Positions 15,405 through 45,577 of a stretch of 64,000 nucleotides of DNA are shown one piece after another (positions within the stretch are counted from its first letter, which is position 1; every line of letters begins with the position of its first letter). Source of the stretch: Parabacteroides sp. PF5-9 (lineage in GTDB: Bacteria; Bacteroidota; Bacteroidia; Bacteroidales; Tannerellaceae); assembly GCF_029893105.1 (NCBI RefSeq), contig NZ_JARXWG010000017.1:37354-101353 (forward strand). The letters are read 5' to 3'. The notes beneath the pieces were generated by a model. That model made no database searches. It saw nothing but the letters and a program-made list of their open reading frames with translations, and was not told where the DNA came from. The position numbers were made by a program, and so were the translations under genes.

Positions 15405-15416
15405 CACTTGTCCATT

Positions 15417-17765: not shown

Positions 17766-17778
17766 AGTTTTACTTTTT

Positions 17779-19113: not shown

Positions 19114-19175
19114 AATCGGTTTGTTTTATGGAGTTGAACACTCCCTGTTTGTAATCTATTTTGCTAAAAACTGTT

Positions 19176-20114: not shown

Positions 20115-20149
20115 TTTTAATTGATATTATACGATCTCCTGTTTGGTTA

Positions 20150-21115: not shown

Positions 21116-21153
21116 AGTTCCTACGTTTTAATTATGATATGATTATAAAAACT

Positions 21154-22056: not shown

Positions 22057-22159
22057 AATTCTGTTGTTTTGATTTATAATTATGGTAATAATTTTATTTA
22101 AAACGGTCTTGTTAATACATTAAGCTGTTGGCACACAAGAACAAAAGATCTATTCATAA

Positions 22160-23059: not shown

Positions 23060-23097
23060 CTTAATTCATAATTAAGGTTTTGGTCAATTTATGATTA

Positions 23098-23982: not shown

Positions 23983-24112
23983 GTCAATATCTCCCAACTA
24001 AGACGCACTTTAAGTACATTTATATATATACAATCATTAAACGATAAAAAGAATCCCTTTTCTTTTTCTGTTGTCTGTAAAACGGTGTTTCAACTCATCA
24101 TTTTAGGCATTT

Positions 24113-30355: not shown

Positions 30356-30356
30356 C

Positions 30357-31058
30357 TTAAGTGTTTATTAATTTATTTATGTATCTGATCTTCTTTTTAA
30401 ATCGATTATATTTGATCGTATCGTCTGTCAGAATTGAGCCTAAACAATATTTACTGATACTGGCCGGACGTATCTGGTGCTGCGATAAAATCTTTTTTGC
30501 ATATGATGTATAGTTACCGTCTTGCTTCAGTTCGACAATCACTAATTCTTCTATTTTACAGGCTTGCTGTGTATAAACGTTCAGAAAACGGATATCCAAA
30601 TCAATCGTCAGCCGCTCTGTCATTTCCACGTTCACCAACGTTATGCGATAAAAGGAATTTTTCAACCTTGGGAAAATATCTCCGGGACTGAAATGCGACT
30701 TTTCTGTGATGAAGCCTTGTACATCTGCTGTCTGAAGTTGGTTTATATCTTCTATCGGAATACGGGTTTTCCGGGTTCGTCCTTTATTGTTTTTATCTTT
30801 TATCTCCAGAAATGTCTGACCGGTATCGATATAACTACGTAGACGTATCTTTTCACGTGGCCTCCGCCCGCTCTGATGCGCCAGGTACATGGCTATATTT
30901 TCCGTATCCAGATAAGTGGTATGATACAGGCTTACCCGATGACCGTTTATCTCCTGCACATAATACCGGTCTTTCATTTCCCAGAGGAGTTTATATAAAA
31001 CATCACGTCGAATAAGGTATTTGGTATCTATCCGATTCATCAACCGGACAGCAGCCAT
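30357..31058 (-). CDS. VTC-domain (polyphosphate polymerase-like) protein, apparently interrupted at its 5' end
   Basis: The 233-residue ORF carries the VTC tunnel fold: RLMNRIDTKYLIRRD at the start, YYVQEINGHRVSLYHTTYLDT near 30-50, REKIRLRSYIDTG and FLEIKDKNNKGRTRKTRIPI near 68-100. These supply the basic residues expected for a polyphosphate or nucleotide-binding tunnel. The domain's usual lead-in (a ...ISLEEM... pattern before the LMNR motif in relatives I know) is encoded in frame just upstream as SPVSLD but is separated by a TAA stop directly before this ATG. Expression therefore needs reinitiation at the abutting TAA-ATG, or the gene is decaying, or the base is an error. Confidence 0.8.
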   Translation of the reverse strand: MAAVRLMNRIDTKYLIRRDVLYKLLWEMKDRYYVQEINGHRVSLYHTTYLDTENIAMYLAHQSGRRPREKIRLRSYIDTGQTFLEIKDKNNKGRTRKTRIPIEDINQLQTADVQGFITEKSHFSPGDIFPRLKNSFYRITLVNVEMTERLTIDLDIRFLNVYTQQACKIEELVIVELKQDGNYTSYAKKILSQHQIRPASISKYCLGSILTDDTIKYNRFKKKIRYINKLINT

Positions 31059-31118
31059 TTAATCCAATGAGACGGGAGAAAACTGATTCAAAACAAATGA
31101 GATATCCTTGTATTCCAT
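31059..31118 (-). pseudogene. In-frame 5' fragment of the VTC-domain gene (stop codon at codon 20)
   Basis: Nineteen codons reading MEYKDISFVLNQFSPVSLD then TAA are in the same frame as, and immediately adjacent to, the VTC ORF. The sequence matches the expected N-terminal helix of VTC proteins, in which a Glu codon would stand where TAA is found (GAA to TAA is one change). Confidence 0.6.
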
Positions 31119-31149
31119 ATCGTGCGTGTAATAAAACAACGGATTCAGA

Positions 31150-32769
31150 TTACCACCAGCCACCAGGTCCGTTCGGCCCTCCGTTCGGCTCTCCATTTTC
31201 TCCACCTGTGCGCCCTACGGTAGTGACCATCGAGTTTACATGAAAGGTCGTTAGCTGAGTGCCCTGGGTATACGATGTATTTTCATACAAGCCATAAAAA
31301 TCAGATCCACCGGATACAGATCCGCCGCTGTATATGGAATAACTTCCTGTTATTATTTCCAGACTGCTATATAAAACGGTCATTGATGAGAGCGTTCGTG
31401 GAAGTTCATATGTCAGGAGATTAATACCTTCTGATGTTTCAATATGAAACAATGTATTTGCTGTGCCACTTCCTGCATAAAGAACCGATCGCTGCGTACA
31501 GGTATTGGATGTCGGGGTACTTGTTGAGCCTCCAATACCCAGAATAGTTCCACCTGTTATTTTAAATGTATTGTGGTCACAATCAAATCCCTCCTCCGGT
31601 GAGGATGTTCCTACTGCAATAATCCTTCCCCCTGTAATCAACAGTGTCCCATTAGAATCTACTCCGTCATTGGCCTGACTGTAACAATAGATATCACCTC
31701 CGTTAATTTCAATATGTGTCGCAGCATTCAGACAATCATCATAAGCTTCTACGACTATGGTTCCATTATTGATAACCAATGTTTTTTTACTCTCAATCCC
31801 TTCTGCCTCGCGCTGGGAAGTCTTAACCTTTATGTCTCCATTGTGGATCGTCAAATGGCTGCGACTTTTTATTGCTTTTGCTGAAATACCAGAAGTGGTC
31901 ACCTGGATTGTACCCCCATGAATCACTAAATAGGGATCTATAGAGGTGTCATTTTCCTCGTAAGATGCAGCAATGCCATCGTCTCCACTCGTTATTGTAA
32001 TCGTACCATCAAAAATTTCGATATAACCTTTTTCGCATTCAATACCATCGGTCTGTGACTCAATGTCTAATGTTCCGCCATCCATCACAAATGCGCTATT
32101 GGTATGAATTCCGTCAGAGACATTGCTTATTGCTGTAATATTTCCTTTATAAATGCGTATATAATCATCACTGCATATCGCATGTTTATAATTTCCTGTT
32201 ACCTGTAAACGACCTTCCCCGCTAAAAATCAACTGTCCTTCACTAAAAAAAGCAGCTTTCATATCTTCTCCTGACACCGTTTTATACGAGATTCCGTCTG
32301 TCAGTTTGTTTACCGTCCCGTCTTTTATTTCGACAAAAACACGTTTATGCGATTGTATGTTAATAGCCGGACCTGTAGGGTTCGTGATATCAACCCCATT
32401 CATGGTCAATTTAAACTTATAATCACTGTAAATTTTAACGAAACCGGATGTCGTTGTCCCAGTTAAAAGATACTCAACTTCTTCTGCTGTTGATTTAATG
32501 ACGACCTCGTCACCATTGGTCTGAATATCGACGCCATTATTTTCTAATGGATTATTTACGATTGGCGTAGAATCCCATGATATGGTTACGAGAGTTGAAA
32601 AATACGAATTGTCGACTTGATCCTGTTTATCATCCGGTGTTGAAGAACTACCGGATGAAGAACCTGAAGAGTCGGATGTTTCAGCCTTATCACAGCTGCC
32701 GAAAGCATATGGGATAATCAAAAACGAGAAAATACATAGAGCATTGATCAAAGAATACTTCAACTTCAT
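31150..32769 (-). CDS. Cthe_2159-like carbohydrate-binding beta-helix lipoprotein (DUF4353)
   Basis: The 539-residue lipoprotein starts MKLKYSLINALCIFSF and carries lipobox AFGSC; a Ser/Gly-rich linker (SSGSSSGSSST) follows. The rest is a repetitive beta-helix with turns such as YIRIYKGNITAISNVSDGIHTNSAF, DGIECEKGYIEIFDGTITI and NDGVDSNGTLLITGGRII, rich in Asp for calcium binding. This matches the Cthe_2159 family, which binds acidic or cellulosic polysaccharide. It ends in a Gly/Asn/Pro/Trp-rich tail. It heads the operon with VTC and DUF4956; the longer TTG-started frame was rejected because a -7 box lies inside it. Confidence 0.88.
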   Translation of the reverse strand: MKLKYSLINALCIFSFLIIPYAFGSCDKAETSDSSGSSSGSSSTPDDKQDQVDNSYFSTLVTISWDSTPIVNNPLENNGVDIQTNGDEVVIKSTAEEVEYLLTGTTTSGFVKIYSDYKFKLTMNGVDITNPTGPAINIQSHKRVFVEIKDGTVNKLTDGISYKTVSGEDMKAAFFSEGQLIFSGEGRLQVTGNYKHAICSDDYIRIYKGNITAISNVSDGIHTNSAFVMDGGTLDIESQTDGIECEKGYIEIFDGTITITSGDDGIAASYEENDTSIDPYLVIHGGTIQVTTSGISAKAIKSRSHLTIHNGDIKVKTSQREAEGIESKKTLVINNGTIVVEAYDDCLNAATHIEINGGDIYCYSQANDGVDSNGTLLITGGRIIAVGTSSPEEGFDCDHNTFKITGGTILGIGGSTSTPTSNTCTQRSVLYAGSGTANTLFHIETSEGINLLTYELPRTLSSMTVLYSSLEIITGSYSIYSGGSVSGGSDFYGLYENTSYTQGTQLTTFHVNSMVTTVGRTGGENGEPNGGPNGPGGWW

Positions 32770-32801
32770 AGTGTTTAATTCTAATTTACTAAATCTGGGA
32801 A

Positions 32802-32809
32802 CAAATGTA
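32802..32809 (-). promoter_or_regulatory. -7 box of the Cthe_2159/VTC/DUF4956/TCS operon
   Basis: TACATTTG on the minus strand, 33 nt before the chosen ATG. The -33 position is occupied by a T-run rather than a clear TTTG. Confidence 0.5.
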
Positions 32810-32828
32810 TTTCCCAGATTAGCCAACT

Positions 32829-32862
32829 AAAAAAAAGATCAATGAAGAAGTTTTTTTCTTCA
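32829..32862 (-). terminator. Possible terminator behind the lsrF-like gene
   Basis: On the minus strand a 7-bp TGAAGAA/TTCTTCA stem (32856-32862 with 32843-32849) is followed, after six nt, by an eight-T run. The stem is AT-rich, so strength is doubtful. A second small hairpin (GAAGG/CCTTC, 32896-32909) lies just ahead of it without a U-run. Confidence 0.45.
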
Positions 32863-32914: not shown

Positions 32915-33796
32915 TTATTCCTCTTTATTGGATAAATCGATGAATAGCTCATAGGCCTGCACGGGAGTCAGTCGTTCATGAACAACAGCATGGACAGCCT
33001 GAATCATCGCTGCAGGAGAACTGCTCTGAAAGACATTTCTACCCATATCTACACCGGCTGCACCATCATTGATCGCATAATAGCATAACTCCAACGCTTC
33101 TTTTTCCGGTAGTTTTTTCCCTCCAGCAATAACGACGGGAACAGGACATGCTGCTGCCACTTTCTCAAAACCTTCGCAATAATACGTTTTCACTATACTT
33201 GCTCCATTTTCGGCACAGATACGGGAGGCCAGGCCAAAATAGCGTGCATCACGTATCATCTCTTTTCCAACAGCAGTCACACCCATTACCGGTATATGAT
33301 AACGACTGGCTCTATCTACTGCCTGAAACAGATTGGCAACAGTTTTTGCCTCATAAGCGGGGTCACCAATAGCCAGCATCACTGCCATGGCTGAAACATT
33401 CAGACGGATGGCATCTTCAATATCCATTAACACATTATCATTCAACTCCGTCAAGATAGAGGTACCCCCATCCGAACGAAGACAAACCGGTTTATTGATA
33501 TGAGGAGGCACTGTCGTTTGCAGAATACCGCGTGTACACATGATACAGTCGGCGTATTCAATCAGAGGAAGAATACTGAGATCTATACGCTCCAATCCTG
33601 AAGTCGGTCCCATAATAAACCCATGATCAAAAGCGAGCATAACCGTCTTTCTGGTTGTAGGATGAAAAATACGCGACAAGCGGTCTTTCATCCCCCACGG
33701 TAAATTGGAAGCACCCTTTACATGAAACGCCTGATGTGAAACATCCACACCTAAACCAAAATCTGATCCGTCTTTTAAGTCATCTAAATCTGCCAT
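32915..33796 (-). CDS. lsrF: LsrF-type thiolase/aldolase (class I, DeoC/LacD superfamily)
   Basis: At 293 residues it matches LsrF closely in length and in conserved blocks: [10 protein letters not shown] at the N-terminus, [20 protein letters not shown] (~53), [12 protein letters not shown] and [13 protein letters not shown] with Lys203 in the position of the Schiff-base lysine of E. coli Lsr[22 protein letters not shown] and [11 protein letters not shown] follow. LsrF cleaves phosphorylated HPD, derived from the signal AI-2, with CoA to give DHAP and acetyl-CoA. Here lsrK, lsrG and the Lsr transporter are absent; DhaL and DhaK precede it with 4-5 nt gaps. The true substrate may be another phosphorylated dicarbonyl or ketose. 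Confidence 0.88.
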
Positions 33797-33800
33797 AGTG

Positions 33801-34430
33801 TTATTGATTTTTGTTTAATTCTTCTGCAAAAGCGGAAAACATACAGGCCCAGGAAGCTGCTCCACTATCCATTGTTCCAACCGAACGTTCCCCATAATTA
33901 CGGGCACGACCGAACTTCGCCTGCATATGGACCGTTTGCTCCGCTCCTCCATTAGCAACGTTGGCAGCCTCTGAAAATAGGATATGTATCTCTTCCGAAG
34001 TAACATCCTGCATCGTTCTGACTGCCGGAATAAGTACATCCATCATGGTCTTATCACCAATGGTGGCCTTTGTTTGCTGTTGCACATTAGCCAATCCTCC
34101 GGCAAACATCCGCTTCAACGCTGCGGCATCTAATACCGTATCCTCTTGAACATGATCACTCATCCCCAGGAAAAAAGCACCCAACAATGTACTGGTTGAA
34201 CCACTGACTTCCAACATGACACGCATTCCCATATCACCCAGCATCGATTTGAATGTGACTCCCTGTTGAGCCACATTCGTAATAACCGTAAACGCTGTGA
34301 CAATTGCTGTACCATGATCACCGTCTCCAATAACAGCATCTAACCGGGAGAACTCATCTTCACGGGCTTTGAGGCAAACCAATGCATGTTGCAGCATGGC
34401 TTTGAAAACCTCTATAGTCAATATTTTCAT
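33801..34430 (-). CDS. dhaL: DhaL subunit of a dihydroxyacetone kinase-like enzyme
   Basis: This 209-residue all-helical subunit has the Mg-ATP/ADP-binding Asp cluster D31, D36 and D38 in [13 protein letters not shown]. It also has [15 protein letters not shown] near 75, [18 protein letters not shown] near 122 and [11 protein letters not shown] near the C-terminus. DhaL supplies the phosphoryl group to the substrate bound on DhaK. In PTS-type systems DhaM recharges it, but no dhaM is present in this window, so either DhaM is elsewhere or the pair uses ATP directly. It lies between dhaK and the lsrF-like gene with gaps of only a few nt. Confidence 0.9.
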
Positions 34431-34435
34431 AATTC

Positions 34436-35452
34436 TTATTTACCGATAGTCGTCCAATAAGGAGTATCCGCTTGTTTATTCTTCAAATAATTCACATGGT
34501 CGTCATCCAAAATAGCTAATAACATCTGAAAACCTGATTGTTCCTGCACTGTCAGTATTTCCGCTATACGGGAAAAAGCGATATTCAGACCTCTGGCCTG
34601 TAATTCTCTGTATGCTTTACGGAAAACGATATTCAACTCCATTTGCGTCGTAGCCCCCACCCCATTTATAATAAGCATCATCTGTGCATCCTTCTGAGGT
34701 TTAAGTTTGCGGCAAAGCTGATCTATCATCCGGGTAGCAGTATCATCCGCTGAGATTAATGGAGTTTGTCCCCCTCCGCCTTCACCATGCTGCCCCATTC
34801 CGATTTCCATAATACCGGGAGGAAGTTCTGAAATCGTGGCATTATTCTGTGGATGCGTACATTTTCCCATCGCTACAGCTAATGTAGCTATACGTTCATT
34901 AAAACGGTTACCGATTTCAATCAGTTCATCCAACGACTTGCCTTCCTCTGCTGCTGCTCCGATAATTTTAAACAAAGGTACACATCCAGCCAATCCACGG
35001 CGGTCGTCGTCTGGAGTATCCAATCCTGCACTGATATCGTCGTGTGTCAGAATGCGTTTCACTTTAATTCCTTCACGTTCAGCCAACTGACAGGCCATAT
35101 TGGCACTCATAACATCTCCGGCATGATTCAACACGACCAACAATATACCGGCTTCACGTTTCATCAATTGCAATGCCTGAAATAACCGTTGAGCACCGGG
35201 AGCAGCAAAAACATCTCCGACTACCGAACAATCGAGCATTCCTTCACCGACAAAACCACTCAAAGCCGGTTCATGCCCTGATCCTCCCAATGTCACAATA
35301 GCTACTTTATCTTCACTTTTCGGAGTTGTCCGGACAATGATATTCTCCCCGCCCAATTTTACTTGATCTCCGTAGGCCAATACATACCCTTCCAGTAACT
35401 CTGGAGTTACCTGCATCGGATCATTTATAAATTTTGTTTTAATGTCAGTCAT
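34436..35452 (-). CDS. dhaK: DhaK subunit of a dihydroxyacetone kinase-like enzyme
   Basis: The 338-residue protein keeps the three key active-site residues of DhaK. They are the His in GGSGHEPAL (residue 60), the Asp in NHAGDVMSANMA (residue 113) and the His in MGQHGEGGGG (residue 222), which in characterised DhaK binds the carbonyl substrate as a hemiaminal. It therefore should bind a short ketose or hydroxy-carbonyl compound. Substrate range of this superfamily extends to erythrulose and related sugars, so dihydroxyacetone is not assured. It is followed by dhaL (5-nt gap) and preceded by a small VOC protein. Confidence 0.9.
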   Translation of the reverse strand: MTDIKTKFINDPMQVTPELLEGYVLAYGDQVKLGGENIIVRTTPKSEDKVAIVTLGGSGHEPALSGFVGEGMLDCSVVGDVFAAPGAQRLFQALQLMKREAGILLVVLNHAGDVMSANMACQLAEREGIKVKRILTHDDISAGLDTPDDDRRGLAGCVPLFKIIGAAAEEGKSLDELIEIGNRFNERIATLAVAMGKCTHPQNNATISELPPGIMEIGMGQHGEGGGGQTPLISADDTATRMIDQLCRKLKPQKDAQMMLIINGVGATTQMELNIVFRKAYRELQARGLNIAFSRIAEILTVQEQSGFQMLLAILDDDHVNYLKNKQADTPYWTTIGK

Positions 35453-35477
35453 GGTATTTTTGTATATAAAGGTTTTC

Positions 35478-35792
35478 TTATTTTATCTGCATGATCTCTA
35501 CCGGAATACCTTCTTCTTCAATAAAGGCAATTGTCAGATGTTCATCACACACCAATGGAGGAAAAATGACTTTCTTTCCTTCCAATTCTCTGTTTATATC
35601 GGGAACAGTATACGCCATATGCGTTTGTGTTTGTACCAATTCAGGTAAAATACTGCCTTCTTCAAATTTCAGCCACTCGATTTTATGCGCACTTTGACTA
35701 AAATCCGTTAGCCATACACTCAACACATCGTTGTACATGGCTCCTTCTTTTTTTTCTGTGGTAACGATTCCCACATGATTAAATGTTCTCAT
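35478..35792 (-). CDS. Small VOC/glyoxalase-fold protein
   Basis: This 104-residue single-module protein starts TFNHVGIVT and ends EEEGIPVEIMQIK, the two edges of a betaalphabetabetabeta VOC module. A middle HMAYTVPDINREL provides a second typical strand. Candidate metal ligands are His6 and the Glu residues near the C-terminus. It could isomerise or epimerise a small dicarbonyl before phosphorylation. Its ATG overlaps the ccsBA stop by 4 nt and dhaK begins 25 nt after it, linking the cytochrome half of the operon to the kinase/thiolase half. Confidence 0.7.
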   Translation of the reverse strand: MRTFNHVGIVTTEKKEGAMYNDVLSVWLTDFSQSAHKIEWLKFEEGSILPELVQTQTHMAYTVPDINRELEGKKVIFPPLVCDEHLTIAFIEEEGIPVEIMQIK

Positions 35793-38242
35793 GATTTGTC
35801 AGAATTAAATGTTAATAGTTTTTTATACTTATTCGCCGAAATAATACTTAAAAGAAGAATAACGGCTCCGGCCGCATATAAATAAAGAAAAAGGTCATTT
35901 ACCTGATCATTCTGTCCGTATGAATGCATCCCGCTCAGGAAATAGTTGACTCCGAAATAGGTCATCAGAACAGAGGCAAATGCAAGAACAGCCATCAGAT
36001 TAAATAACCATAAGTTATTCCATTTTTTCACCAACCTTACGTGAATAACAATAACATACACGACCATTGTAATCAAAGCCCATGTTTCTTTCGGATCCCA
36101 TCCCCAATAGCGTCCCCACGATTCATTGGCCCATACGGCACCCAGAAATGTACCAATGGTCATCAATGCTAATCCGATCAGTAAAGACATCTCATTGACG
36201 ATCGATAACTCGCGTATCCGAGTCAACATAAAAGCGGTATTTTTTTCTCTTGACAAACTGATTGTCAACAAATTGGTCAAACCTATTAGACAACTAATAC
36301 CAAAAAAGCCATAGGCTGCAACAATTACCGCTACATGAAACATCAGCCAGGGAGATTTCAGAACAGGTACTAACGGATTTATTTGAGGATCCATCCAATT
36401 CAGTCCCGAAACAAAAAGAATGATTCCACCGAATAAAGTCGCCAAAGCAAAAGTAATCGTACTTCGGCGTACAAAAAGTAATCCCGCCAAAACGGTTGCC
36501 CAAGAGACATAAACCATCGTTTCATATGAATTACTCCATGGAGCATACCCACCTATATACCAACGCATTCCCATGCCATAAACATGAAACGCGAAAACAA
36601 GTATTATGCAAACTGTTAAAATTACAGCAAACGATTTGTTCCAACTTGTTTGTTTAAATAAAGAAAGAAATGATAAGAGCAGTAAAACTCCCCCCAGAAT
36701 GAGATAACCTATTTTACATTTCCGGAAAATATCCAGCTGATTATACTTCATTTCAGTTTGTATTTTTTTATCACTGATCTTCAAGGTCGTATTTTTAGCT
36801 TGCTGATAGGTTTTGATCATACCAAGGACTTCATCTGCCTTATTCCAATCATTACTTTTCAAAGCGTCTTGTACCTCACCTAAATACCATCCCATGATTT
36901 TAGAAACAAACAAGGAGTCTTTACCTGCAAATGAAGAAAGATCATCTCCCGCTGCATACCAGGTATGATCCGGATCATCTTCCTTGGGGAACAAATTCAA
37001 TAACTGATGATTGATGAGTTGATGAAAGATGTTGATCTTCTCATCGAATTTCAACAAATCCTTATCAAACCGGCTCCGTTCTGCCGGCATTTTCTGATAA
37101 GCTTTTTCCAACCGTTCCTGTAATTTGTACGCTCCATTATTGTCGAACACTTCTATAAATGCACATTCTCCAGGCGTTAATTCAAAATAATCGGCCAGAT
37201 CATCGTTTCCGACAACGATAAACGGTATCTGCATCCACATATCCGGCATCGCCAAAAGACTCAGGAGGAATTGATCAGAATTAAGTTTACCAAATGTCTC
37301 CGATTGATGAAATTTGCGCAAAATTTCCGATGAAAACGTATTTATTGGCAACATTCTGCCGTTATTTGCCTGAATAGGCAAAGCGCCAAATTGTGCAGCA
37401 TGTACTTCATTAACCGTATATTTCCAGACAGCCTCCAGTAGAGGAGATGGTTGCTCTTTCCCATGAAGAGTCACCGGTACTATCAATGTGAAAACTATTA
37501 GTCCAATAACTGCTTCACTTCTTATTTTTTTCAATTCCCGACTTAATAGCCTGAAACGTGAATGTTTTCCGATAAAACTTAACACAAAACCGATCATCAA
37601 TACGATATATCCGGTATATGTTATATTTCGTCCGGCCACATCTTTATTGACCGACAAAACGGTACCTTTTTCGTCCGGATCATAAGAAGCCTGAAAAAAA
37701 CGATATCCTTTTACATCTAATACATTGTTCATATAAACCCGTTCGTGAAGCACTTCATTCTCCAGATGAACGATCAGTTCACTTTCATACGAAGAAGGAC
37801 TTGTCGAACCGGGATAACGGGTCAATCTGAATTTGACTAATTCTACGGTAAAAGGTAATGTATGATAATAAGTTTCTTTGGAGGTTCTTACAGCTATTTG
37901 ATGACTACTCTCCCCCTCCCTGAGATGAAGGATCCCTTCCTGACCAAAAAAATGAGAGACCATCGCTCCCGTCAAAATAATGATAAAGGCAAAGTGAATA
38001 AACAAAAATCCCCATTTACGCTGCTTCAATAGTTGATATTGGATTGCAACCATCAGAAAATTAATGACCAACAACAGTTGCAGTAAGAAAAACACCGGCG
38101 AATAATAGACCATCGCTTTGGCTGCCACCGTACCATGGTATTTCTCTATAAAAGTCGCTAATGCTAAGATAAATGCATATACAATCAATAGTACAATTGT
38201 AGTCACATAAGAAGAGAGAAGTCTTTCTATTTTCGTCTTCAT
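35789..38242 (-). CDS. ccsA: CcsBA-type cytochrome c biogenesis protein (ResB-CcsA fusion)
   Basis: This 817-residue membrane protein has ResB/CcsB-like helices in the first ~210 residues, a large extracytoplasmic region (~245-480, AT-rich in charged helices) and a CcsA domain from ~490. The CcsA domain carries the tryptophan-rich haem-handling motif WGRYWGWDPKETWALI near 710 and conserved His in its helices. System II CcsBA exports haem and attaches it to CxxCH motifs. Its position directly behind two genes encoding CxxCH proteins suggests a dedicated maturase for them. Start and length are normal for the fused Bacteroidetes form. Confidence 0.93.
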   Translation of the reverse strand: MKTKIERLLSSYVTTIVLLIVYAFILALATFIEKYHGTVAAKAMVYYSPVFFLLQLLLVINFLMVAIQYQLLKQRKWGFLFIHFAFIIILTGAMVSHFFGQEGILHLREGESSHQIAVRTSKETYYHTLPFTVELVKFRLTRYPGSTSPSSYESELIVHLENEVLHERVYMNNVLDVKGYRFFQASYDPDEKGTVLSVNKDVAGRNITYTGYIVLMIGFVLSFIGKHSRFRLLSRELKKIRSEAVIGLIVFTLIVPVTLHGKEQPSPLLEAVWKYTVNEVHAAQFGALPIQANNGRMLPINTFSSEILRKFHQSETFGKLNSDQFLLSLLAMPDMWMQIPFIVVGNDDLADYFELTPGECAFIEVFDNNGAYKLQERLEKAYQKMPAERSRFDKDLLKFDEKINIFHQLINHQLLNLFPKEDDPDHTWYAAGDDLSSFAGKDSLFVSKIMGWYLGEVQDALKSNDWNKADEVLGMIKTYQQAKNTTLKISDKKIQTEMKYNQLDIFRKCKIGYLILGGVLLLLSFLSLFKQTSWNKSFAVILTVCIILVFAFHVYGMGMRWYIGGYAPWSNSYETMVYVSWATVLAGLLFVRRSTITFALATLFGGIILFVSGLNWMDPQINPLVPVLKSPWLMFHVAVIVAAYGFFGISCLIGLTNLLTISLSREKNTAFMLTRIRELSIVNEMSLLIGLALMTIGTFLGAVWANESWGRYWGWDPKETWALITMVVYVIVIHVRLVKKWNNLWLFNLMAVLAFASVLMTYFGVNYFLSGMHSYGQNDQVNDLFLYLYAAGAVILLLSIISANKYKKLLTFNSDKS

Positions 38243-38306
38243 TTCATTATTTGTTGATCGTGGATGTTCACCTCATAATTGGCAATCATCCACGATCAAT
38301 GACCAA

Positions 38307-41300
38307 TTAATCTTCTATAATAACCCTGAAACCGACATTATGAACCCGTTGCCATGGATAGTAGGCTTTACGGGCATAAGCGGTTGAAAATTTTGGGCGT
38401 TCAAGATACGAACCTCCACGGACAACTTTATAATCTGAAGAAGTTTTAACTTTTTCAGAATATGGGTATGGAAGATAATCCGAACGTGTCCATTCAGCTA
38501 TATTTCCATGCATACTGTACAATCCGAAAGGATTTGCTTCGTATACTTTCGAATCAGTTTGAATCATATGCCCGTCGTCTACGTTTTCGGCTTTAGGTAA
38601 ATAGCTGTAATAGGTGTACCAGAAGGCCTCTTTTTTCATCGGTTGCGGATCGATACCACTCACCGCAAAATCAGTTGTTGAAGCATCAGCCAGATTCTCA
38701 TATTTCCCAAAATCAGTATGGAGATTACCATACCAGAACGGTTCATCACTGCCTGCCCGGCAGGCCCATTCCCATTGTGCTTCAGTCGGTAAAGTCATAT
38801 GAAGTCCTGTCAGAAGGCTCAACGCTTGGCAATACTTAACGGCATCTTCATAACTGACCCGAATAACCGGCTGATGCGGCAGATTCGCTTCGTATCCCGG
38901 CCGGGTATGATCTTTCCATAACTGGTCGACATACCTACTGTCGTGGTCGGGGTTGATCACCTCATACTGAGCATTTGTCACCTCGACTTCCGCCATCCAG
39001 AATGACTTATTAATTTTTACTTTAGAAGTCGGACGAACATCAGCTTCTCCCTGATAACTCCCCATCACAAACTCACCTGCTGGGATACGGACAAATGTCA
39101 TCTTCACACCCGGTATTAATTCGATCTCTTTGCGGGTTTCTGTTTCTTTGATCAGCAAAGCAGATACGGCCTCTTTATTAAATGGCCAATTTTTTACTTT
39201 AATTGCTTTCTGTGTAACAGGTGTTGATCGTTCCGGACGCACCGGGGTAATTTCACCTTTGCCTTTCAGGTACGCGGCATAATCTGCTATTTCTTTTTGC
39301 CAGTCGACCCCGGCATTATTCCCATATTTGTTTGTCAGGTCAATACGACGGGTTATCTGAGGATAACCTTTATAGGGGAAACTGGTAATCGTATCCGCAT
39401 TGAAGTAACCTTTATCCGGAGCATTATAATCGATCCAGTTATAGAGGACTTTCCATTCATCGGCTGTCAATGTGACGTTGTAATGTCCCTTTTTCAGAAC
39501 ACGAATAAGTTCGCTTGTATTCGCATGATATTCATAAGGTTGCAACACGATCATATCCGCTTCCGGTCCTTGACGATGCACATAAGGATGCAAATTCAGG
39601 TAAGCCGTACCATACCCTTTTTCGTCTTTTTTGCCGCCACGCAGATCAAAAGCCCGGCCTTCTCCGGTATGGCAGGCAATACAAGCTCTATCCAAAACAG
39701 GCTGAACTTCCAGATCAAAAGTAAACGAACGAACTCCTCCTTCAGGAAGCGTCAGTTTTACCGGAGTTTTCTGAGAGGCTATGACGCGTTTGGGAATAGG
39801 TATCTGATTTTGATCTTCATGACAACCGACACATGAAACGATTTCACCCGGTTGACCTGTAAACCAGCTACGCATCCATTGAATAGCCGCACCATCTTCA
39901 TCCAACGGCTGTATGGATACAGGAGTATTGGCCGGAATCTTAAAAATTACGGAACCATCCTCTTCCACCGGAACAGTACCCAAGTTACGTTTGATGTCCC
40001 AACCACTCTGAATACCATGCCAGTTATGGTCGGAAGTCGTTTTCACATACGCATATTCATACGCATGTATACGAAGCGCTTTAACCGTACCCCGAGGTAC
40101 TCCACGTAATCCTTCTCCCTCATAGACATCTTGTATAAAGACTGTGGCATCCTTCTCTTCCAACTTGACCCGGTCAGGTATCGCCGGAGGTGTATTTCGC
40201 TTGCCAACTAATATCGGACTAATATACCCTTCACCTTCAACCTTTTGCAAACAAGTGACATTGTCGTAGATATCGACTAAATACAATCCCCAAAGATCAT
40301 GTTCATCCAGTTTGGCAGAGACCAGAAAATAGGTATCGCTCAATGGTGTTGGTTTGACGAATTGCGGCCAAACATCATTGACAAGTTCATCTTTGACCAA
40401 TTCGATGATGGGACGGTTACGGAAAGGGATCTCTTGCAACATTCCCGCAGCCCCTTTACGAGCTTTCGTCGGATCAAACAATATCAGCCGTCCGGAACGA
40501 GCAATACCATGATGCCCTGAAATAATCCCGACAAAGGCTGATGAATGTCCGGGCAAAGGCTGAATATCAAACGTACTGTTTGGAAACATCGAGCCACTGC
40601 CGAACAACGCTTTGTTTTCTGTTCCGTCAGGGTTCATATGCATCACAATACGCGAGTAATAATGGGTAAGATCCGTATATTCCCAACGGGTATACATTAC
40701 GCGACCATTATTCATTATTACAGGATTCCAATTGGCATCCTGATCGAATGTCAATCGGCGCATATTTTTCTCTTTCGGATTATATAACACCATATTGCCT
40801 ACCGGATCAGATCCGCTGACACAAGGTACCCCATGATAACCGATATTGGAATTCGCGATCAAACGACCATCCGGCAAATATGTACCATCATAAAACTCAA
40901 GGTCTGGCTCCAACATATTCATCAAAGGACGAGCACCAGATCCGTCTAATTTTGCCTCAAACAAGTTCCAGCGCTGATCGGGCATCAAAGAAGTAAACAT
41001 CACCCGATCTCCCTCCCAATGGATCTTCAGATCAGCAATAGAGGCCATATTGTCTGGTTTATACACAGTACGTAGAGACGGTTCATTGTCTCGTAAACGG
41101 CTGAGTTCTACAATCTCGGCATCAAAACCTGTCCGTCGAGCCGACTCCTGATTACTCCAGTTATTCGCCTGTGTTCCCAACTCGGGAGCCATGGCTTTAT
41201 GTGCATTTATTCCAAGTTTAAAGCGGGTGGCAACAATCTTATCACCATCCAGTAACGGATTGGCCAACAAAATGGTCTGCTTATTTCTCAAGGCTTTTTC

Positions 41301-41900
41301 TGCATTGGAAAAAGCTTCTTTCTCTCTTTTGTAAATACCGGCAAACCCTTTTTTTACCAATTGATTCAATTCATCCATCACAGGCTGATATTCAGACGCA
41401 TTAAACCCTTTCATCTTTTTCATATCCCCATAAGCCAACTGGATGGATTCCATATTCAACCAAGCCAATTCGCGCTGAAGATCATAAAGAGATTGAAGTT
41501 CTTCATACAACTCCAGATAGTTTTTTATCCGGAGATCAAGATCACTCTCCTGCTCTATTTTATCGATCTCACGGGTATAAAACGAAGGATCGTTTAAAAG
41601 CGACACTAACCGACTGACGACATCTTTCTCGACAGTTGCATCTGTCGTAGCCAACCAGTTATCCAACCGATCCAGATAGGTATTGAAGCGGCTCAATTCT
41701 TTGGGATAACTGCTCACCAATTGTGCAACATCCTCTTTGATGTTGATCCGAATCGAATCAATAGGGATTTCTTTATCCGGATAAGCTGTTCGTATAGCTG
41801 ATTTTAGCTTAACTGAAGCATCAATCCAGTTACTCTTTGATTGCCCTTGTACAATAACCGAAACAACTAAAAAAATGGATAAAATAATTGTATATCGCAT
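38307..41900 (-). CDS. Large exported c-type cytochrome: HZS-alpha-like middle plus SUMF1/FGE-like C-terminal domain
   Basis: The 1197-residue exported protein has a signal peptide (ILSIFLVVSVIVQGQS) and a helical N-terminal part (~20-240). A propeller-like middle follows (TSLMPDQRWNLFEAKLDG, LPDGRLIANSNIG, YTRWEYTDLTHYYSR), resembling hydrazine synthase alpha-subunit-like proteins. Two haem sites, CVGCH (~690) and CIACH (~738), come next. Residues ~940-1197 form a SUMF1/FGE-like domain (GEFVMGSYQGEADVRP, LPTEAQWEWACRAG, NPFGLYSMHGNIAEW, VVRGGSY). The paired catalytic Cys of true formylglycine-generating enzymes is not visible near the C-terminus, so the domain is probably structural or binding. 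Confidence 0.82.
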   Translation of the reverse strand: MRYTIILSIFLVVSVIVQGQSKSNWIDASVKLKSAIRTAYPDKEIPIDSIRINIKEDVAQLVSSYPKELSRFNTYLDRLDNWLATTDATVEKDVVSRLVSLLNDPSFYTREIDKIEQESDLDLRIKNYLELYEELQSLYDLQRELAWLNMESIQLAYGDMKKMKGFNASEYQPVMDELNQLVKKGFAGIYKREKEAFSNAEKALRNKQTILLANPLLDGDKIVATRFKLGINAHKAMAPELGTQANNWSNQESARRTGFDAEIVELSRLRDNEPSLRTVYKPDNMASIADLKIHWEGDRVMFTSLMPDQRWNLFEAKLDGSGARPLMNMLEPDLEFYDGTYLPDGRLIANSNIGYHGVPCVSGSDPVGNMVLYNPKEKNMRRLTFDQDANWNPVIMNNGRVMYTRWEYTDLTHYYSRIVMHMNPDGTENKALFGSGSMFPNSTFDIQPLPGHSSAFVGIISGHHGIARSGRLILFDPTKARKGAAGMLQEIPFRNRPIIELVKDELVNDVWPQFVKPTPLSDTYFLVSAKLDEHDLWGLYLVDIYDNVTCLQKVEGEGYISPILVGKRNTPPAIPDRVKLEEKDATVFIQDVYEGEGLRGVPRGTVKALRIHAYEYAYVKTTSDHNWHGIQSGWDIKRNLGTVPVEEDGSVIFKIPANTPVSIQPLDEDGAAIQWMRSWFTGQPGEIVSCVGCHEDQNQIPIPKRVIASQKTPVKLTLPEGGVRSFTFDLEVQPVLDRACIACHTGEGRAFDLRGGKKDEKGYGTAYLNLHPYVHRQGPEADMIVLQPYEYHANTSELIRVLKKGHYNVTLTADEWKVLYNWIDYNAPDKGYFNADTITSFPYKGYPQITRRIDLTNKYGNNAGVDWQKEIADYAAYLKGKGEITPVRPERSTPVTQKAIKVKNWPFNKEAVSALLIKETETRKEIELIPGVKMTFVRIPAGEFVMGSYQGEADVRPTSKVKINKSFWMAEVEVTNAQYEVINPDHDSRYVDQLWKDHTRPGYEANLPHQPVIRVSYEDAVKYCQALSLLTGLHMTLPTEAQWEWACRAGSDEPFWYGNLHTDFGKYENLADASTTDFAVSGIDPQPMKKEAFWYTYYSYLPKAENVDDGHMIQTDSKVYEANPFGLYSMHGNIAEWTRSDYLPYPYSEKVKTSSDYKVVRGGSYLERPKFSTAYARKAYYPWQRVHNVGFRVIIED

Positions 41901-41933
41901 GGTATATTCCGTTTTATAAGGACTTTTGTATAA

Positions 41934-42632
41934 TTATAAAGAGGCCTTTGAATTACTGAAACGTAATCCGGCTCCATCATGATAAGAGGCCCATTCGTCG
42001 ACAATCGCCCCTTCGGGACCAGCCATTAAGAAATGAAAAGAGGCTTCTTTTTTCAAGTGAACAACTTCTCCCAGCTCTTGTTTGATGAAATTTTTACTTT
42101 TTATCGGTCCATGCAAAGCCGGAATAGTCGGTGGATTGGGCGTTTCTTCTCCGATCTCAGAAAAATTATAAGCCCACCCTTTCGTAACCATCCACGATTC
42201 GAATTTAGGTGCATACGCTGTCTTTACATGGGCGTGTTCAGGAATCATCTGGTCGGGCAACAAATAAATTGCATGGGCAAAATAATTGTGTTCCGCATCA
42301 TTGACCCAAAAGATTCCACCCATACCGATATGTTCGAAATCACCCAGTCCAAAATCGACGACCCACATATCTTTCTCCATAAGCGGAGTAAAAGGAACAC
42401 CATAAAATTCAAACATATCTTTATATGCTTGAATCGCTACATCCTCATTGAACTTTCCGTCGGTGTAAAAATCGGCATTTGTGTACTTTTTAGAATACTT
42501 CATCTCTTTTATATTTTGTAGGTTAGTATTATTCTCTTCAGTAGTCGTCTGTGTTGTTTTTTCCGTGCAAGCAACCATCCCGCAAAGGATGATTCCCAGA
42601 GCAATAGATTTAAGATATTCCTTCTTTTTCAT
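41934..42632 (-). CDS. Cupin-like lipoprotein
   Basis: The 232-residue protein has lipobox MVAC at about 19-22, a Thr/Glu-rich linker and a single cupin barrel. The metal-type motif PEHAHVKT lies near 134 and the second cupin motif around FHFLMAGPEGAIVDEWASYHDGAGLRF near 200. The arrangement recalls cupin sugar isomerases of the D-lyxose isomerase type, but here it is tethered in the periplasm or outer membrane. It could bind or isomerise a sugar-like substrate for the neighbouring cytochromes. Reaction and ligand are unknown. It lies 33 nt before the large cytochrome gene. Confidence 0.7.
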   Translation of the reverse strand: MKKKEYLKSIALGIILCGMVACTEKTTQTTTEENNTNLQNIKEMKYSKKYTNADFYTDGKFNEDVAIQAYKDMFEFYGVPFTPLMEKDMWVVDFGLGDFEHIGMGGIFWVNDAEHNYFAHAIYLLPDQMIPEHAHVKTAYAPKFESWMVTKGWAYNFSEIGEETPNPPTIPALHGPIKSKNFIKQELGEVVHLKKEASFHFLMAGPEGAIVDEWASYHDGAGLRFSNSKASL

Positions 42633-42682
42633 CTGTTGTAAGTGTTTATTGTTAGTTATTTTATTGATTTTTCCCTACTTAC

Positions 42683-44458
42683 TCATAAGGAATTGACATA
42701 TTCAGTAAGTACTTCGATCTCTTTCTTGGAGATCTTCCGGTCGATGCCATGTTTATAGGTATCAAATACGTCCTGCATGGTTGCTGCCCGTCCGTCAAAA
42801 AGATAAGGAGCCGTGCGCCATACTTCCCGTAAGGTGGGAGTATCCCATCCTTTTTCAAATTCAACCGCTTCACCAATACGGTGCATTTTCAGATCGGTAT
42901 AGTATGGGCCACTATGACATGCCCCACAGTTGAATTTTTCAAACACAAGACGCCCGGCTTTGGCTTTCTCCGATAGTTCTCCATCCACCAGATAAGGACT
43001 TGGCACCGGACGAAGCGCTTTCAGATAGGCATTTACACAATCGAGACGTTCCTGATCCATTTCGTAGAATTGTATAAACTTGAAACCGGCATCAACAGCC
43101 ACTTCAGCCGATGCCCGAATACCCGATATCATATTGGGAGAGGTCACATGACTGAACAATAAGCTCTTACAATTTTTAGAATTACCTACTCCGTCATTCA
43201 TCAAGTCCCAGTTCATCGCATCCATCCGGCCATCACCCGGGTGGCAACCATTACAACTTTGCCAGTTCTGAAAACAGTTCATCGCATCATTAAAATACTT
43301 CTCGCCAGACTGCTCTTTTGTCTCCGTCCGTCCCGGATTCATCTGAACCGATGTGATCATACGGGTATTCAAATCCATGGTATTCAATATATCCGCAAAA
43401 TAGGTCGGTATGATCAGTTTGTCGTTCGTCAGTAAGATATGACGAGGACCATTCCCCTCTAAAGGGATACGTTCACGCAGACCATATAAAAAGGTGAGGT
43501 CGTAATCCAATGTCGTTTTATCGGGATATTTCTCAAATTTTTCACGCATAGCCGGATGATCGATCACACTAACTTCATGCGTACCCGAATGCAACACATA
43601 AATCTCTTTTTCATTACAGGCCATTTCCCAAATTCCCGCTGCTCCCCTCTCGGGTTCATCAACAACGATTGCTCCGACAAAACGTTGTGTCTCCGTATCA
43701 ATAACACTGAAAGCACTGGTATTCATCCAGCCTTGCTGCAGCTGCGAGGTAGGAACAGTGAACCGCCCCAGGTTATGAGACACATAGATATATTTCCCAT
43801 CAGGAGTCACACAAATACCACGCAAAGCATTACTGCCATTGGCCAACTGAATATCTTTTATTTTCTTGAAGCTATTGACTTCTATCACAGAAACACAAGC
43901 AGCCACCACATCCAGATCCGCCCGTTGAGCCGGAAGAAAATTAGCTACATAGAGAAAACGACCGTCTTTACTGAATACTGCCGATTTGGGTTCCCGCAAT
44001 ACCTCTACTGTTCGTACAACTTTTTGCGAAACCGGATCGACCTCACTAACCGTATTGGAAAATTGATTACACACATAGATATAACGCTTATCGGGACCGA
44101 AAACAGGTGCACACGCTCCAGAACCTACTGGAATAGAGGCTTTTACCCTACCCGACTCCAAGGACAAAACCTCTAATCGCCCTTTAGTCTCAAAGGTGGT
44201 CACATACACATACCGTCCATCCGTCAAAAGACCTGTCGGGGTTTCATCCAATGAAAAAGATCTAAAAAATTCCTTTCCATCGGAAGAAAACAGATCTACT
44301 CGTTTCAATTCTTTTTGAGCGAACAGAAGTTCACCTTGAGCGGTTCGGGCAATGCCTGTCGTGAAAAACGGCTTATTGCCTGCCCATGCGGTTCCAATCA
44401 AACCGCATAGCAGACAAATAAACAAATTGCTTTTCATTGAGTGTATGTGTGTTTTCAT
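42683..44458 (-). CDS. Beta-propeller dihaem cytochrome c (cytochrome c peroxidase/MauG-like C-terminal half)
   Basis: The 591-residue exported protein (signal MKSNLFICLLCGLIGTAWA) has a YncE/YVTN-type seven-bladed propeller over ~25-375 (VYVTTF, YIYVCNQFSNTVSEVDP, FLYVANFLPAQ, YIYVSHNLGRF). The two haem motifs are CNGCH (~400) and CGACH (~510); the last part (WDTPTLREVWRTAPYLFDGRA) is typical of di-haem cytochrome c peroxidase/MauG-like proteins. It should act in the periplasm, either reducing peroxide or oxidising an organic substrate. It begins 8 nt after iclR. An in-frame ATG 21 nt downstream (44437) gives the cleaner signal peptide. Confidence 0.88.
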   Translation of the reverse strand: MKTHIHSMKSNLFICLLCGLIGTAWAGNKPFFTTGIARTAQGELLFAQKELKRVDLFSSDGKEFFRSFSLDETPTGLLTDGRYVYVTTFETKGRLEVLSLESGRVKASIPVGSGACAPVFGPDKRYIYVCNQFSNTVSEVDPVSQKVVRTVEVLREPKSAVFSKDGRFLYVANFLPAQRADLDVVAACVSVIEVNSFKKIKDIQLANGSNALRGICVTPDGKYIYVSHNLGRFTVPTSQLQQGWMNTSAFSVIDTETQRFVGAIVVDEPERGAAGIWEMACNEKEIYVLHSGTHEVSVIDHPAMREKFEKYPDKTTLDYDLTFLYGLRERIPLEGNGPRHILLTNDKLIIPTYFADILNTMDLNTRMITSVQMNPGRTETKEQSGEKYFNDAMNCFQNWQSCNGCHPGDGRMDAMNWDLMNDGVGNSKNCKSLLFSHVTSPNMISGIRASAEVAVDAGFKFIQFYEMDQERLDCVNAYLKALRPVPSPYLVDGELSEKAKAGRLVFEKFNCGACHSGPYYTDLKMHRIGEAVEFEKGWDTPTLREVWRTAPYLFDGRAATMQDVFDTYKHGIDRKISKKEIEVLTEYVNSL

Positions 44459-44466
44459 AGTTTCGG

Positions 44467-45285
44467 TTATTTTCTTGTACTACTGGCGATTCGACTATAG
44501 CCTAATTCGGCTGATATTTTCCCGGCTATCTCTTTGATAGCTTCTGCTGAAGAGGTAATCATCGCTGGCGACAAACGATCCTTCGGACCCGAAATCCATA
44601 TCGACCCACACGGATAACCGGTATAATTAAAAACGGGCGCTCCGATACAGATTACGCCATTCAACTCTTCTTCATTGTCAAGCGCATACCCTTTTTGACG
44701 CACTTTTTCCAATTCTTTCAGATAATCTTCTTTATTTGTTAATGTTCGTTCATTATAACGTGTGAATGTCATGTACGACAGGTAACGTTCTCTGACCGTA
44801 TTGGGTAAATAAGCCATAATCGCTTTTCCCGGAGCTGAACAATGCAACTCAAACGATTTACCGGGTGAAAGTATAAACCTGAATGTATGATGCCCCTGTG
44901 CCTGTTCGATAAAAATACCCTTTTCATCGCCTAAAACACCAAAACAGGCCGTCTCTTCCACCTGATCCCGCAAGTCACGCAAATGGGGCAAAACGGTCTC
45001 CATCAGGTTATGTTCATTCAAAGATCTGAAACCCAACGTCAACAATTTCCGAGACAATTTATACCGTTTATTATCCTCCTTATACGTCAGATAATCCAAA
45101 CGCACCAAGGTATTTAATATTCTATAAGCTGTTGTTTGTGAAATAGATAAATCTGTTTTTATTTCCTGCAATGTCTTCCCCTCCGAACGAAGAGACAGAT
45201 ATTCAAGTACAGCAATACCTTTTTCAAGATTAGGTACCTTGTAATTCTCTTCTGGTTTTTCCATATTTGGAATCTGCTTTTCCAT
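44467..45285 (-). CDS. IclR family transcriptional regulator
   Basis: This 272-residue regulator has a winged HTH at ~20-80 (LEKGIAVLEYLSLRSEGKTLQEI, SISQTTAYRILNTLVRLDYL) and an effector-binding domain from ~95. The latter has the family motifs FELHCSAPGKAIMAYLP, RQKGYALDNEEELNGVICIGAPVF and GSIWISGPKDRL. IclR members sense small organic acids or sugar derivatives. It is the first gene of the nine-gene operon and is likely autoregulatory: a perfect palindrome overlaps its -7 box. A 13-bp direct repeat around the start provides two in-frame ATGs (45285 and 45264); the first was kept. Confidence 0.92.
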   Translation of the reverse strand: MEKQIPNMEKPEENYKVPNLEKGIAVLEYLSLRSEGKTLQEIKTDLSISQTTAYRILNTLVRLDYLTYKEDNKRYKLSRKLLTLGFRSLNEHNLMETVLPHLRDLRDQVEETACFGVLGDEKGIFIEQAQGHHTFRFILSPGKSFELHCSAPGKAIMAYLPNTVRERYLSYMTFTRYNERTLTNKEDYLKELEKVRQKGYALDNEEELNGVICIGAPVFNYTGYPCGSIWISGPKDRLSPAMITSSAEAIKEIAGKISAELGYSRIASSTRK

Positions 45286-45304: not shown

Positions 45305-45343
45305 ATTTGAATCAAATATAATAAGCTACTGATAATAAGCAAG
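45305..45343 (-). promoter_or_regulatory. iclR-operon promoter with overlapping palindrome (candidate IclR operator)
   Basis: The -33 CTTG (45340-45343), 19-nt spacer and -7 box TATATTTG (45313-45320) form a Bacteroidetes promoter. The palindrome ATTTGA-A-TCAAAT (45305-45317) covers half of the -7 box and the bases after it, a placement suited to self-repression. The operator assignment is inference. Confidence 0.6.
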
Positions 45344-45477: not shown

Positions 45478-45577
45478 CAATTAATCGTCTACCAATTGGT
45501 AGACGATAGTGACACAGTTGGTAGACGATAGTGACCCAACTGGTAGACGATAGTGCACCAACTGGTAGACGATTAAA
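45478..45577. repeat. 22-bp-period repeat array, type A (copy 2, inverted relative to copy 1)
   Basis: TAGACGAT recurs at 22-bp spacing after an opening 22-bp palindrome; ends carry a perfect 14-bp inverted repeat (TTAATCGTCTACCA at 45481-45494, complement at 45563-45576). The first 30 bp are identical to the reverse complement of the right end of the array at 7890-7993. It stands between the MATE gene's 3' end and the iclR promoter, about 135 bp upstream of that promoter. Confidence 0.85.

Follow-up and report, generated by a model that had tools for sequence, protein, structure and literature searches.

Hydrazine synthase (HZS) makes hydrazine from NO and ammonium and, to our knowledge, is known to work only in the ammonium-oxidising anammox bacteria. 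It was earlier viewed as an enzyme with no homologues outside this group; a 2025 study then found distant ones, clades I-IV, in Planctomycetota, Desulfobacterota and other hosts, for which the text of that report gives no function, and its main text names Bacteroidota as HZS homologues only in the beta-gamma tree (PMC12758564). A KEGG subunit of hydrazine synthase has been reported from ruminant gut metagenomes, described there with no genome context (PMC12784710). In open-access titles and the starts of abstracts, with some searches swamped by unrelated papers, we found no link between HZS homologues and a Bacteroidales sugar operon. The remaining enzymes discussed here resemble three known systems: the Lsr system of E. 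coli for AI-2, the D-lyxose/D-mannose isomerases (PDB 7NZO, 2Y0O) and the dihydroxyacetone kinases (PDB 3CT4, 1UN8).

The window, that is, the whole stretch of 64,000 nucleotides that was analysed, comes from a relative of the gut genus Parabacteroides. It contains a nine-gene operon which, judged from sequence, joins HZS relatives to the sugar-isomerase, dihydroxyacetone-kinase and LsrF-aldolase families. All nine open reading frames, from iclR to lsrF, lie where the original prediction had placed them and on the minus strand, and the intergenic distances, in order 8, 50, 33, 64, -4, 25, 5 and 4 nt, agree with its claimed range of -4 to 64 nt. The first gene encodes an IclR-family regulator of 272 aa (44467..45285; PF01614 140 bits, PF09339 39 bits). 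The same relative order of all nine genes recurs in 15 of the 36 regions fetched from related genomes, many of these 15 having an extra gene between HzsBC and the cupin, and because of this recurrence the operon is more than a chance arrangement.

The second gene encodes an HzsBC-like protein of 591 aa (42683..44458), in which a beta-propeller corresponding to HZS beta is fused to a MauG-like di-haem domain corresponding to HZS gamma; it scores 103 bits with NF052342 and matches both subunits in the Kuenenia stuttgartiensis structure (5c2v_B, E 1.4e-20; 5c2v_C, E 1.6e-17). The HzsA-like protein (1197 aa, 38307..41900) consists of a TolB-like propeller, an HZS_alpha middle domain and a C-terminal FGE-sulfatase/SUMF1 domain, in this order. 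Both N-termini resemble signal peptides by eye, and we predict that the two proteins leave the cytoplasm and work together as a complex in the periplasm. Four CxxCH haem sites on two proteins had been proposed, and they are indeed present, at 402-406 and 511-515 (C402, C511) of the HzsBC-like protein and at 690-694 and 740-744 (C690, C740) of the HzsA-like protein; their Cys pairs and His are invariant in 100 aligned rows (87 distinct) and 93 rows (82 distinct), respectively, where each row stands for a single locus, certain genomes contribute two rows and proteins shorter than a length limit were left out. The original prediction took these proteins for c-type cytochromes and did not recognise their HZS homology. 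As in the anammox enzyme (PDB 5C2V), the locus provides an alpha subunit with the HZS_alpha domain and the HZS alpha fold, together with a beta-propeller and gamma di-haem partner, here as one fused protein; there are two CxxCH motifs on each of two proteins, the beta-gamma gene stands upstream of alpha, and His occupies the position of gamma His144 (His437; His in 98 of 100 rows). Unlike in Kuenenia, beta and gamma are fused, as they are in Ca. Scalindua japonica (PMC12758564), and, unlike anammox HZS, the alpha protein has the extra FGE-sulfatase domain and the neighbours are sugar-type enzymes.

A true hydrazine synthase is rejected, as the scores fall far short of the NCBIfam cut-offs for HZS (40 vs 800 bits for the HzsA-like and 103 vs 1250 for the HzsBC-like protein) and three residues of the anammox enzyme are not kept. 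Tyr591 of HZS alpha, a haem I ligand four positions after the CxxCH His, is replaced by Asn698 (of the 93 rows, 91 have Asn and 2 Ser), in a register set by spacing because the local alignment to 5c2v_A stops just before it. Gamma Cys165, which forms the third covalent bond to haem gamma-I, corresponds to Val453 and is Cys in 0 of 100 rows, while gamma Asp168, which sits at the axial water of the same haem, is Asp456 in the window and Asp in only 2 of 100 rows, with Arg in 82. No residue-level alignment covers the alpha zinc ligand Cys303, itself variable even among anammox bacteria in the account of PMC12758564; Cys360 of the HzsA-like protein is invariant in 93 rows. Parts of the HzsA model have low confidence (249 residues with pLDDT < 50), the surroundings of the haem motifs included, so haem geometry was not read from it. 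The non-anammox homologues of clades I-IV, as described in the same source, share with the operon the fused beta-gamma protein, the co-located alpha and the partial loss of HZS-specific residues; clades I-III are described as having Trp at gamma-144, alpha first and a CRTAC1/FG-GAP neighbour (PMC12758564), whereas the operon has His437, beta-gamma first and an isomerase/kinase/LsrF neighbourhood, with no match to CRTAC1/FG-GAP among its proteins.

Between the two haem-protein genes lies that of the cupin lipoprotein (232 aa, 41934..42632). The original prediction recognised the cupin and the lipoprotein, the latter borne out by a lipobox Cys22 read by eye, and missed the family: the protein matches D-lyxose/D-mannose isomerases (PDB 7nzo, E 2.6e-14; 2y0o, E 1e-10) and has their His, His, Glu, His metal site as H133, H135, E145 and H200, invariant in 94/94 rows. 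It differs from those enzymes in being a predicted exported lipoprotein encoded among haem-protein genes. Downstream of HzsA follow CcsBA, a ResB-CcsA fusion of the cytochrome c haem ligase type (817 aa, 35789..38242; PF01578 132 bits, PF05140 75 bits), and a protein of 104 aa (35478..35792) for which sequence searches gave no useful match and the fold model decided; on that model it is a VOC-fold protein with paired His/Glu metal-type residues (H6, E39, H58, E99).

The active sites ascribed earlier to the three remaining enzymes hold in their relatives. DhaK (338 aa, 34436..35452; PF02733 321 bits; PDB 3ct4, E 6.8e-59) keeps His60, Asp113 and His222 in 66/66 rows (57 distinct), and DhaL (209 aa, 33801..34430; PF02734 132 bits) keeps the nucleotide-site Asp31, Asp36 and Asp38 in 40/40 rows (37 distinct), as in described dihydroxyacetone kinases; unlike these, both fall below their NCBIfam equivalog cut-offs. 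The DhaM-type EIIA-man domain (PF03610) was not found in the organism's own genome and was detected in 5 of 14 controls, so that a PTS-type DhaKLM kinase is rejected and, with no PTS partner found, DhaK/DhaL are probably ATP-dependent. LsrF (293 aa, 32915..33796) scores 458 bits with PRK08227 (cut-off 297) and matches LsrF in the PDB with E ~1e-107; Lys203, claimed before, is present in 34/34 rows (33 distinct), in which D57, H58, D250, R253 and the phosphate-loop glycines are invariant as well. The catalytic residues given for LsrF in PMC2728841 are Lys203, Asp57, His58, Asp251 and Arg254, the last two being D250 and R253 in the present numbering.

Absence of co-occurrence in other genomes had been named as evidence against joining the haem and kinase halves, and they are found together; the comparisons support the view that they belong together. 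Among 60 related genomes, own included, LsrF exceeds its cut-off in 22, and an HzsA-like gene is present in 22/22 of these, in one (G035) counted only through a contig that starts inside HzsA. In an order-wide sample of 393 Bacteroidales, HzsBC occurs in 10 of the 11 LsrF genomes (Fisher p ~1e-12, uncorrected for ancestry), and this linkage demotes a reading as accidental neighbours. The converse does not hold: LsrF is missing from 14 of the 24 order-sample genomes that carry HzsBC and from 12/12 genomes picked for haem-half-only loci (the same search detected it in 10/10 others), and 10 of 80 named loci have no kinase-half gene, their visible downstream sequence being 3 kb or longer. Since the haem half often occurs without the kinase half, its product need not enter DhaKL/LsrF.

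At the level of transcription, TATATTTG (45313..45320, minus strand), 27 nt before the iclR start, matches TAnnTTTG, which we take to be the Bacteroidetes -7 promoter motif; this is a pattern match only, the sole one in six intergenic stretches examined, and inside the operon there are six matches on its own strand and four on the other, while the promoter scan gave 36 sites vs 43.9 expected by chance (sd 7.1), no excess. A 22-bp repeat upstream of iclR was rejected as the operator, since the same core occurs at 7897-7986. The terminator scan yielded an excess (20 terminator-like sites vs 12.3 expected by chance, sd 3.5), with no minus-strand site in any intergenic gap of the operon. The HzsA-CcsBA gap is largely taken up by a hairpin (38254..38299, minus strand; 13-bp outer stem, -26.2 kcal/mol, z -5.6) which has no T-run, so the earlier remark that no terminator was noticed is formally right inside the operon; it overlooked a terminator-like hairpin 3' of lsrF (32829..32862, minus strand; hairpin 32843-32862, eight T at 32829-32836), which lies under the G+C rule of the scan and because of which the transcription unit probably ends after lsrF. 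A hairpin recurs at the HzsA-CcsBA position in relatives with different sequence, and a strong one was found in 39 of 52 distinct gaps between the halves, which are not independent because near-identical gaps of related species remain. As these gaps (median 68 nt) are longer than most others, z-scores, with plain shuffling wherever the dinucleotide walk fails, are the fairer measure. An internal element separating the halves, named beforehand as counter-evidence, is in part present in this recurrent hairpin.

It could be argued that the inner half is a sink for AI-2 (DPD) or a related 1-deoxy-diketone, in which the VOC protein would isomerise DPD to 3,5-dihydroxypentane-2,4-dione, DhaKL would phosphorylate it and LsrF would release DHAP and acetyl-CoA, replacing LsrG and LsrK. 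LsrF above the equivalog cut-off with the catalytic residues named in PMC2728841, the VOC-DhaK-DhaL-LsrF gene order and a kinase and small isomerase-like protein adjoining LsrF as in E. coli all fit this, and a Bacteroidetes lsrF homologue was significant in a body-site-specific gut model, AI-2 degradation being suggested for it in the account given there (PMC6084841). We consider it unlikely, and AI-2 recycling as the main function is demoted, as luxS was found in none of 36 genomes from the organism's family, a set that includes its own genome and some incomplete ones, although exogenous AI-2 is a possible source; moreover, LsrK, LsrG, an Lsr transporter and LsrR, which accompany LsrF in E. 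coli, are not among the nine proteins, and the HZS-like proteins and the isomerase would be left unexplained when only one of the 11 LsrF genomes in the order sample is without the former.

The matches of the gamma domain to di-haem peroxidases (3o5c, E 1.7e-7; 6e1c, E 1.3e-5), the many genomes with the haem half alone and the hairpin between the halves would suit a peroxidase- or MauG-like complex with a protective or protein-modifying role, travelling with an independent ketose kinase-aldolase cassette of separate function. Such a pairing seems quite improbable to us given how rarely LsrF occurs without the haem half. The genes also keep together through rearrangement (L064- and L126-type loci), and of the 10 loci with no kinase half, 9 have the isomerase gene adjoining the haem genes. 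A modified nitrogen enzyme, handling periplasmic NO, hydroxylamine or ammonium by NO detoxification or N-N/N-O chemistry while the other proteins process a sugar that is damaged or contains nitrogen, would draw on the anammox-like architecture and gene order, on His437 in place of the Trp of clades I-III and on a Rid/chorismatase-like gene added in 62 of 80 loci; with Cys165 and the alpha Tyr replaced throughout the aligned rows and Asp168 in nearly all of them, it is very improbable.

Our preferred reading, offered tentatively and with a probability of about 0.42, is that the operon encodes a catabolic pathway: the haem complex would oxidise a sugar, and isomerisation, phosphorylation and cleavage would follow. 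From the gene identities, catalytic residues and linkage given above we infer every catalytic step in the operon context as follows. The HzsA/HzsBC-like complex, its haems matured by CcsBA, would take electrons from a periplasmic glycan-derived sugar to give an oxo-sugar, and the isomerase-like lipoprotein would shift the aldehyde to C2, yielding a diketose. After uptake by a transporter encoded outside the operon, the VOC protein may epimerise the compound or shift the keto group next to the carbonyl, DhaK/DhaL would phosphorylate the CH2OH adjoining the ketone, and LsrF would cleave the phospho-beta-diketone to DHAP and acyl-CoA; with the matching ketose phosphate as substrate instead, the products would be DHAP and an aldehyde. 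IclR may sense a pathway intermediate, and the HzsA-CcsBA hairpin may keep the haem proteins in excess. A similar model was part of the original prediction, of which the linkage of the halves and the chemically sensible sequence from oxidation to cleavage stand, whereas the haem half on its own in 14/24 genomes weakens it. We count against the sugar route the haem half without LsrF, the hairpin, the scores far below the HZS cut-offs and the glycoside hydrolases, which vary between lineages at operon-type loci, none being typed adjoining the operon within the window; we also know of no HZS homologue with a demonstrated sugar function.

A broader proposal, which we regard as rather doubtful, is that HZS-type complexes outside anammox bacteria serve carbohydrate catabolism as haem enzymes of the periplasm. 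Gut Bacteroidales would use them to turn glycan-derived sugars into diketoses, which the lyxose-isomerase-like lipoprotein, DhaKL and LsrF would convert thiolytically to DHAP and acyl-CoA; this may be an ancestral function, out of which hydrazine synthesis would have evolved. HZS annotations in gut metagenomes call for caution against an anammox reading. HZS homologues gain a conserved metabolic neighbourhood in the cultivated gut genera Parabacteroides and Bacteroides, which makes the function of HZS-like proteins directly testable. If the sugar model is true, sugar breakdown would gain a thiolytic route that depends on haem, there would be another reason for gut-linked lsrF in Bacteroidetes, and a role would be suggested for the ancestor of a key enzyme of the nitrogen cycle.

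The nine minus-strand genes of the original prediction (32915-45285) were found at the positions proposed, with inter-gene gaps of -4 to 64 nt, running from iclR through the HzsBC-like, cupin, HzsA-like and ccsBA genes of the haem half to VOC, dhaK, dhaL and lsrF of the kinase half. A match to the Bacteroidetes -7 promoter motif TAnnTTTG lies 27 nt upstream of iclR, and lsrF is followed on its 3' side by a hairpin and T-run resembling a terminator. Upstream of iclR, at 45484-45573, there is also a 22-bp tandem repeat (3.7 copies, a palindromic end, core TGGTAGACGAT), which was rejected as an operon operator because a second occurrence at 7897-7986, some 37 kb away, marks it as a dispersed repeat. 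Downstream of lsrF, the stretch 29666-32826 has a gene for a Cthe_2159 carbohydrate-binding protein, adjoined by what by eye resemble DUF4956 and VTC-domain genes, and a long minus-strand series of lipoprotein-like genes at 12864-23997 resembles, again by eye, fimbrillin or Mfa-type surface proteins.

Both the gene identities and their linkage are well supported. All nine genes keep the same relative order in 15 of 36 regions from related genomes (L031, L033, L034, L036, L038, L040-L043, L045, L047-L051), at least one of the nine being in broken frames in L036, L043 and L050, and the remaining regions comprise contig-end cuts, lone HzsA paralogues, HzsA-HzsBC pairs and other partial sets. L064, a locus from a distant genome, retains eight of the nine genes in a different order, with no CcsBA found within the region. 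Its HzsA-like gene is divided into two adjacent frames (L064:7638-11696), one for the N-terminal/propeller part and one for the haem and FGE part, both with a signal-peptide-like beginning by eye. Among the best 80 of 169 loci encoding relatives, from Parabacteroides, Bacteroides, Phocaeicola, Paraprevotella, Prevotella, Dysgonomonadaceae and Petrimonas, 66 combine HzsBC, cupin and HzsA, 51 include one or more kinase-half genes and 21 have the full set of four; ten have HzsA without any kinase-half gene and at least 3 kb downstream in view, and 19 are unclassifiable for the kinase half, mostly since the sequence ends.

Whole genomes show the same linkage. In 60 genomes, our own included, PF18582 was present in 25, LsrF over its cut-off in 22 and both in 21; since the contig of genome G035 begins within HzsA and continues with CcsBA-VOC-DhaK-DhaL-LsrF, HzsA accompanies LsrF in 22 of 22. 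HzsA and LsrF lie on separate contigs in G012 and G015, and four genomes (G028, G042, G046, G057) carry PF18582 without LsrF. Across 393 Bacteroidales, likewise including our own and with HzsBC accepted at E up to 1e-30, LsrF was found in 11, HzsBC in 24 and both in 10, the eleventh LsrF, from a genome without HzsBC, having two internal stops. Fisher p values are about 3e-11 and 1e-12, respectively, with G035 scored as a miss and shared ancestry ignored. HzsBC occurs without LsrF in 14 of the 24 genomes, and LsrF was absent from all 12 genomes, possibly incomplete, chosen for haem-half-only loci (nine of these loci satisfy the 3-kb downstream rule), the identical search being positive in 10 of 10 other genomes. 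The dependence of LsrF on the haem half is one-way, as expected if DhaKL-LsrF take one haem-half product that other routes can also use.

The junction between the halves carries a hairpin. The 64-nt HzsA-CcsBA gap of the window folds at -26.2 kcal/mol (z -5.6), the 52 distinct gaps found at this junction include 39 with a folding energy of -12 kcal/mol or below, and z is under -3 in 37 of the 45 gaps of at least 25 nt (median -5.4). The corresponding counts are 0/10 each for IclR-HzsBC, HzsBC-Rid and HzsBC-cupin, 2/46 for Rid-cupin, 5/24 for cupin-HzsA, 1/32 for CcsBA-VOC, 1/3 for cupin-VOC, 5/36 for VOC-DhaK, 5/6 for DhaK-DhaL (all 41 gaps there having a median of 4 nt), 8/31 for DhaL-LsrF and 2/3 for LsrF-Mal. 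The HzsA-CcsBA hairpin varies in sequence from species to species, and with a T-rich tail in only 6 of the 39 strong cases most are probably not plain terminators; it would lower or separate expression of the second half.

The HzsA-like and HzsBC-like proteins are homologues of the alpha and fused beta-gamma subunits of hydrazine synthase (HZS), and their being true hydrazine synthases is ruled out by residues, named here after PMC12758564 and PMC12607021. Gamma Cys165 corresponds to Val453 in the window and is Cys in 0 of 100 aligned rows, the gamma Asp168 position holds Asp in two of 100 (the window among them), and the Tyr four residues past the alpha CxxCH His is absent from aligned HzsA-like rows. 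Gamma His144 corresponds to His437, conserved as His in 98 of 100 rows, whereas peroxidases and clades I-III of non-anammox HZS homologues have Trp there (PMC12758564; PMC12607021). The beta-gamma gene precedes the alpha gene as in anammox bacteria, unlike the order in clades I-III. Lone HzsA-like paralogues or HzsA-HzsBC pairs also occur (L032, L046, L056, L060, L062; L054, L058, L066), with no isomerase or kinase genes within the fetched regions, so in Bacteroidales the HZS-like family has more members and more varied forms. Genes like the window's could be the source of the HZS subunit K20934 (KEGG) recorded for ruminant gut metagenome samples in one study (PMC12784710).

A model in which the haem complex oxidises a sugar, followed by isomerisation, phosphorylation by DhaKL and cleavage by LsrF, has in our estimate a probability of about 0.4. 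The cupin lipoprotein belongs to the D-lyxose/D-mannose isomerase family (E 2.6e-14; H133, H135, E145 and H200 invariant in aligned rows). The 104-aa protein, for which sequence searches yielded no useful match, is predicted (pLDDT 97) to adopt a VOC fold closest to glyoxalases and methylmalonyl-CoA epimerases, and its H6, E39, H58 and E99 do not vary across 67 aligned rows. The catalytic residues checked are kept in DhaK, DhaL and LsrF; DhaK and DhaL score under their NCBIfam equivalog cut-offs, and as a search of the genome found no EIIA-man domain, ATP probably donates the phosphate. The genome has a second CcsA-type frame elsewhere, suggesting that the operon CcsBA is a dedicated copy. GH36, GH31, GH95 with GH35, GH38 and one SusD flank some loci (eight flank proteins typed), and a sequence cluster with two members typed, both as GH36, recurs in 9 of the best 80 of 169 loci. 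An NPCBM domain, absent from the window's HzsA, is present in 114 of the best 120 of 3723 HzsA relatives found and in L042. In the same best 80 loci, Rid/FkbO-like and Mal s 1-like propeller genes, both named by Pfam, occur in 62 and 14, respectively, the former exemplified by a Rid/FkbO-Hyg5-like (chorismatase-type) gene at L042:13170-14264 beside the HzsBC-like and cupin genes, as in many relatives, and the latter following LsrF at L042:1850-2734 and L064:6711-7631. Neither is in the window operon; the closest Rid relative in our genome is distant (28% identity), and no Mal s 1-like family match was found there.

The kinase half might instead serve as a sink for AI-2 (DPD), in keeping with the tie of Bacteroidetes lsrF to the gut and the AI-2 degradation suggested in PMC6084841. 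luxS, however, was found in none of 36 same-family genomes (our own included, some incomplete) and in two of 60 overall, and the HZS-like and ketose-type neighbourhood offers an alternative reading of the gut Bacteroidetes lsrF in that study (PMC6084841). What is most surprising is the link, in gut bacteria, between HZS-type proteins and enzymes of the ketose type, and this holds independently of the sugar-oxidation model.
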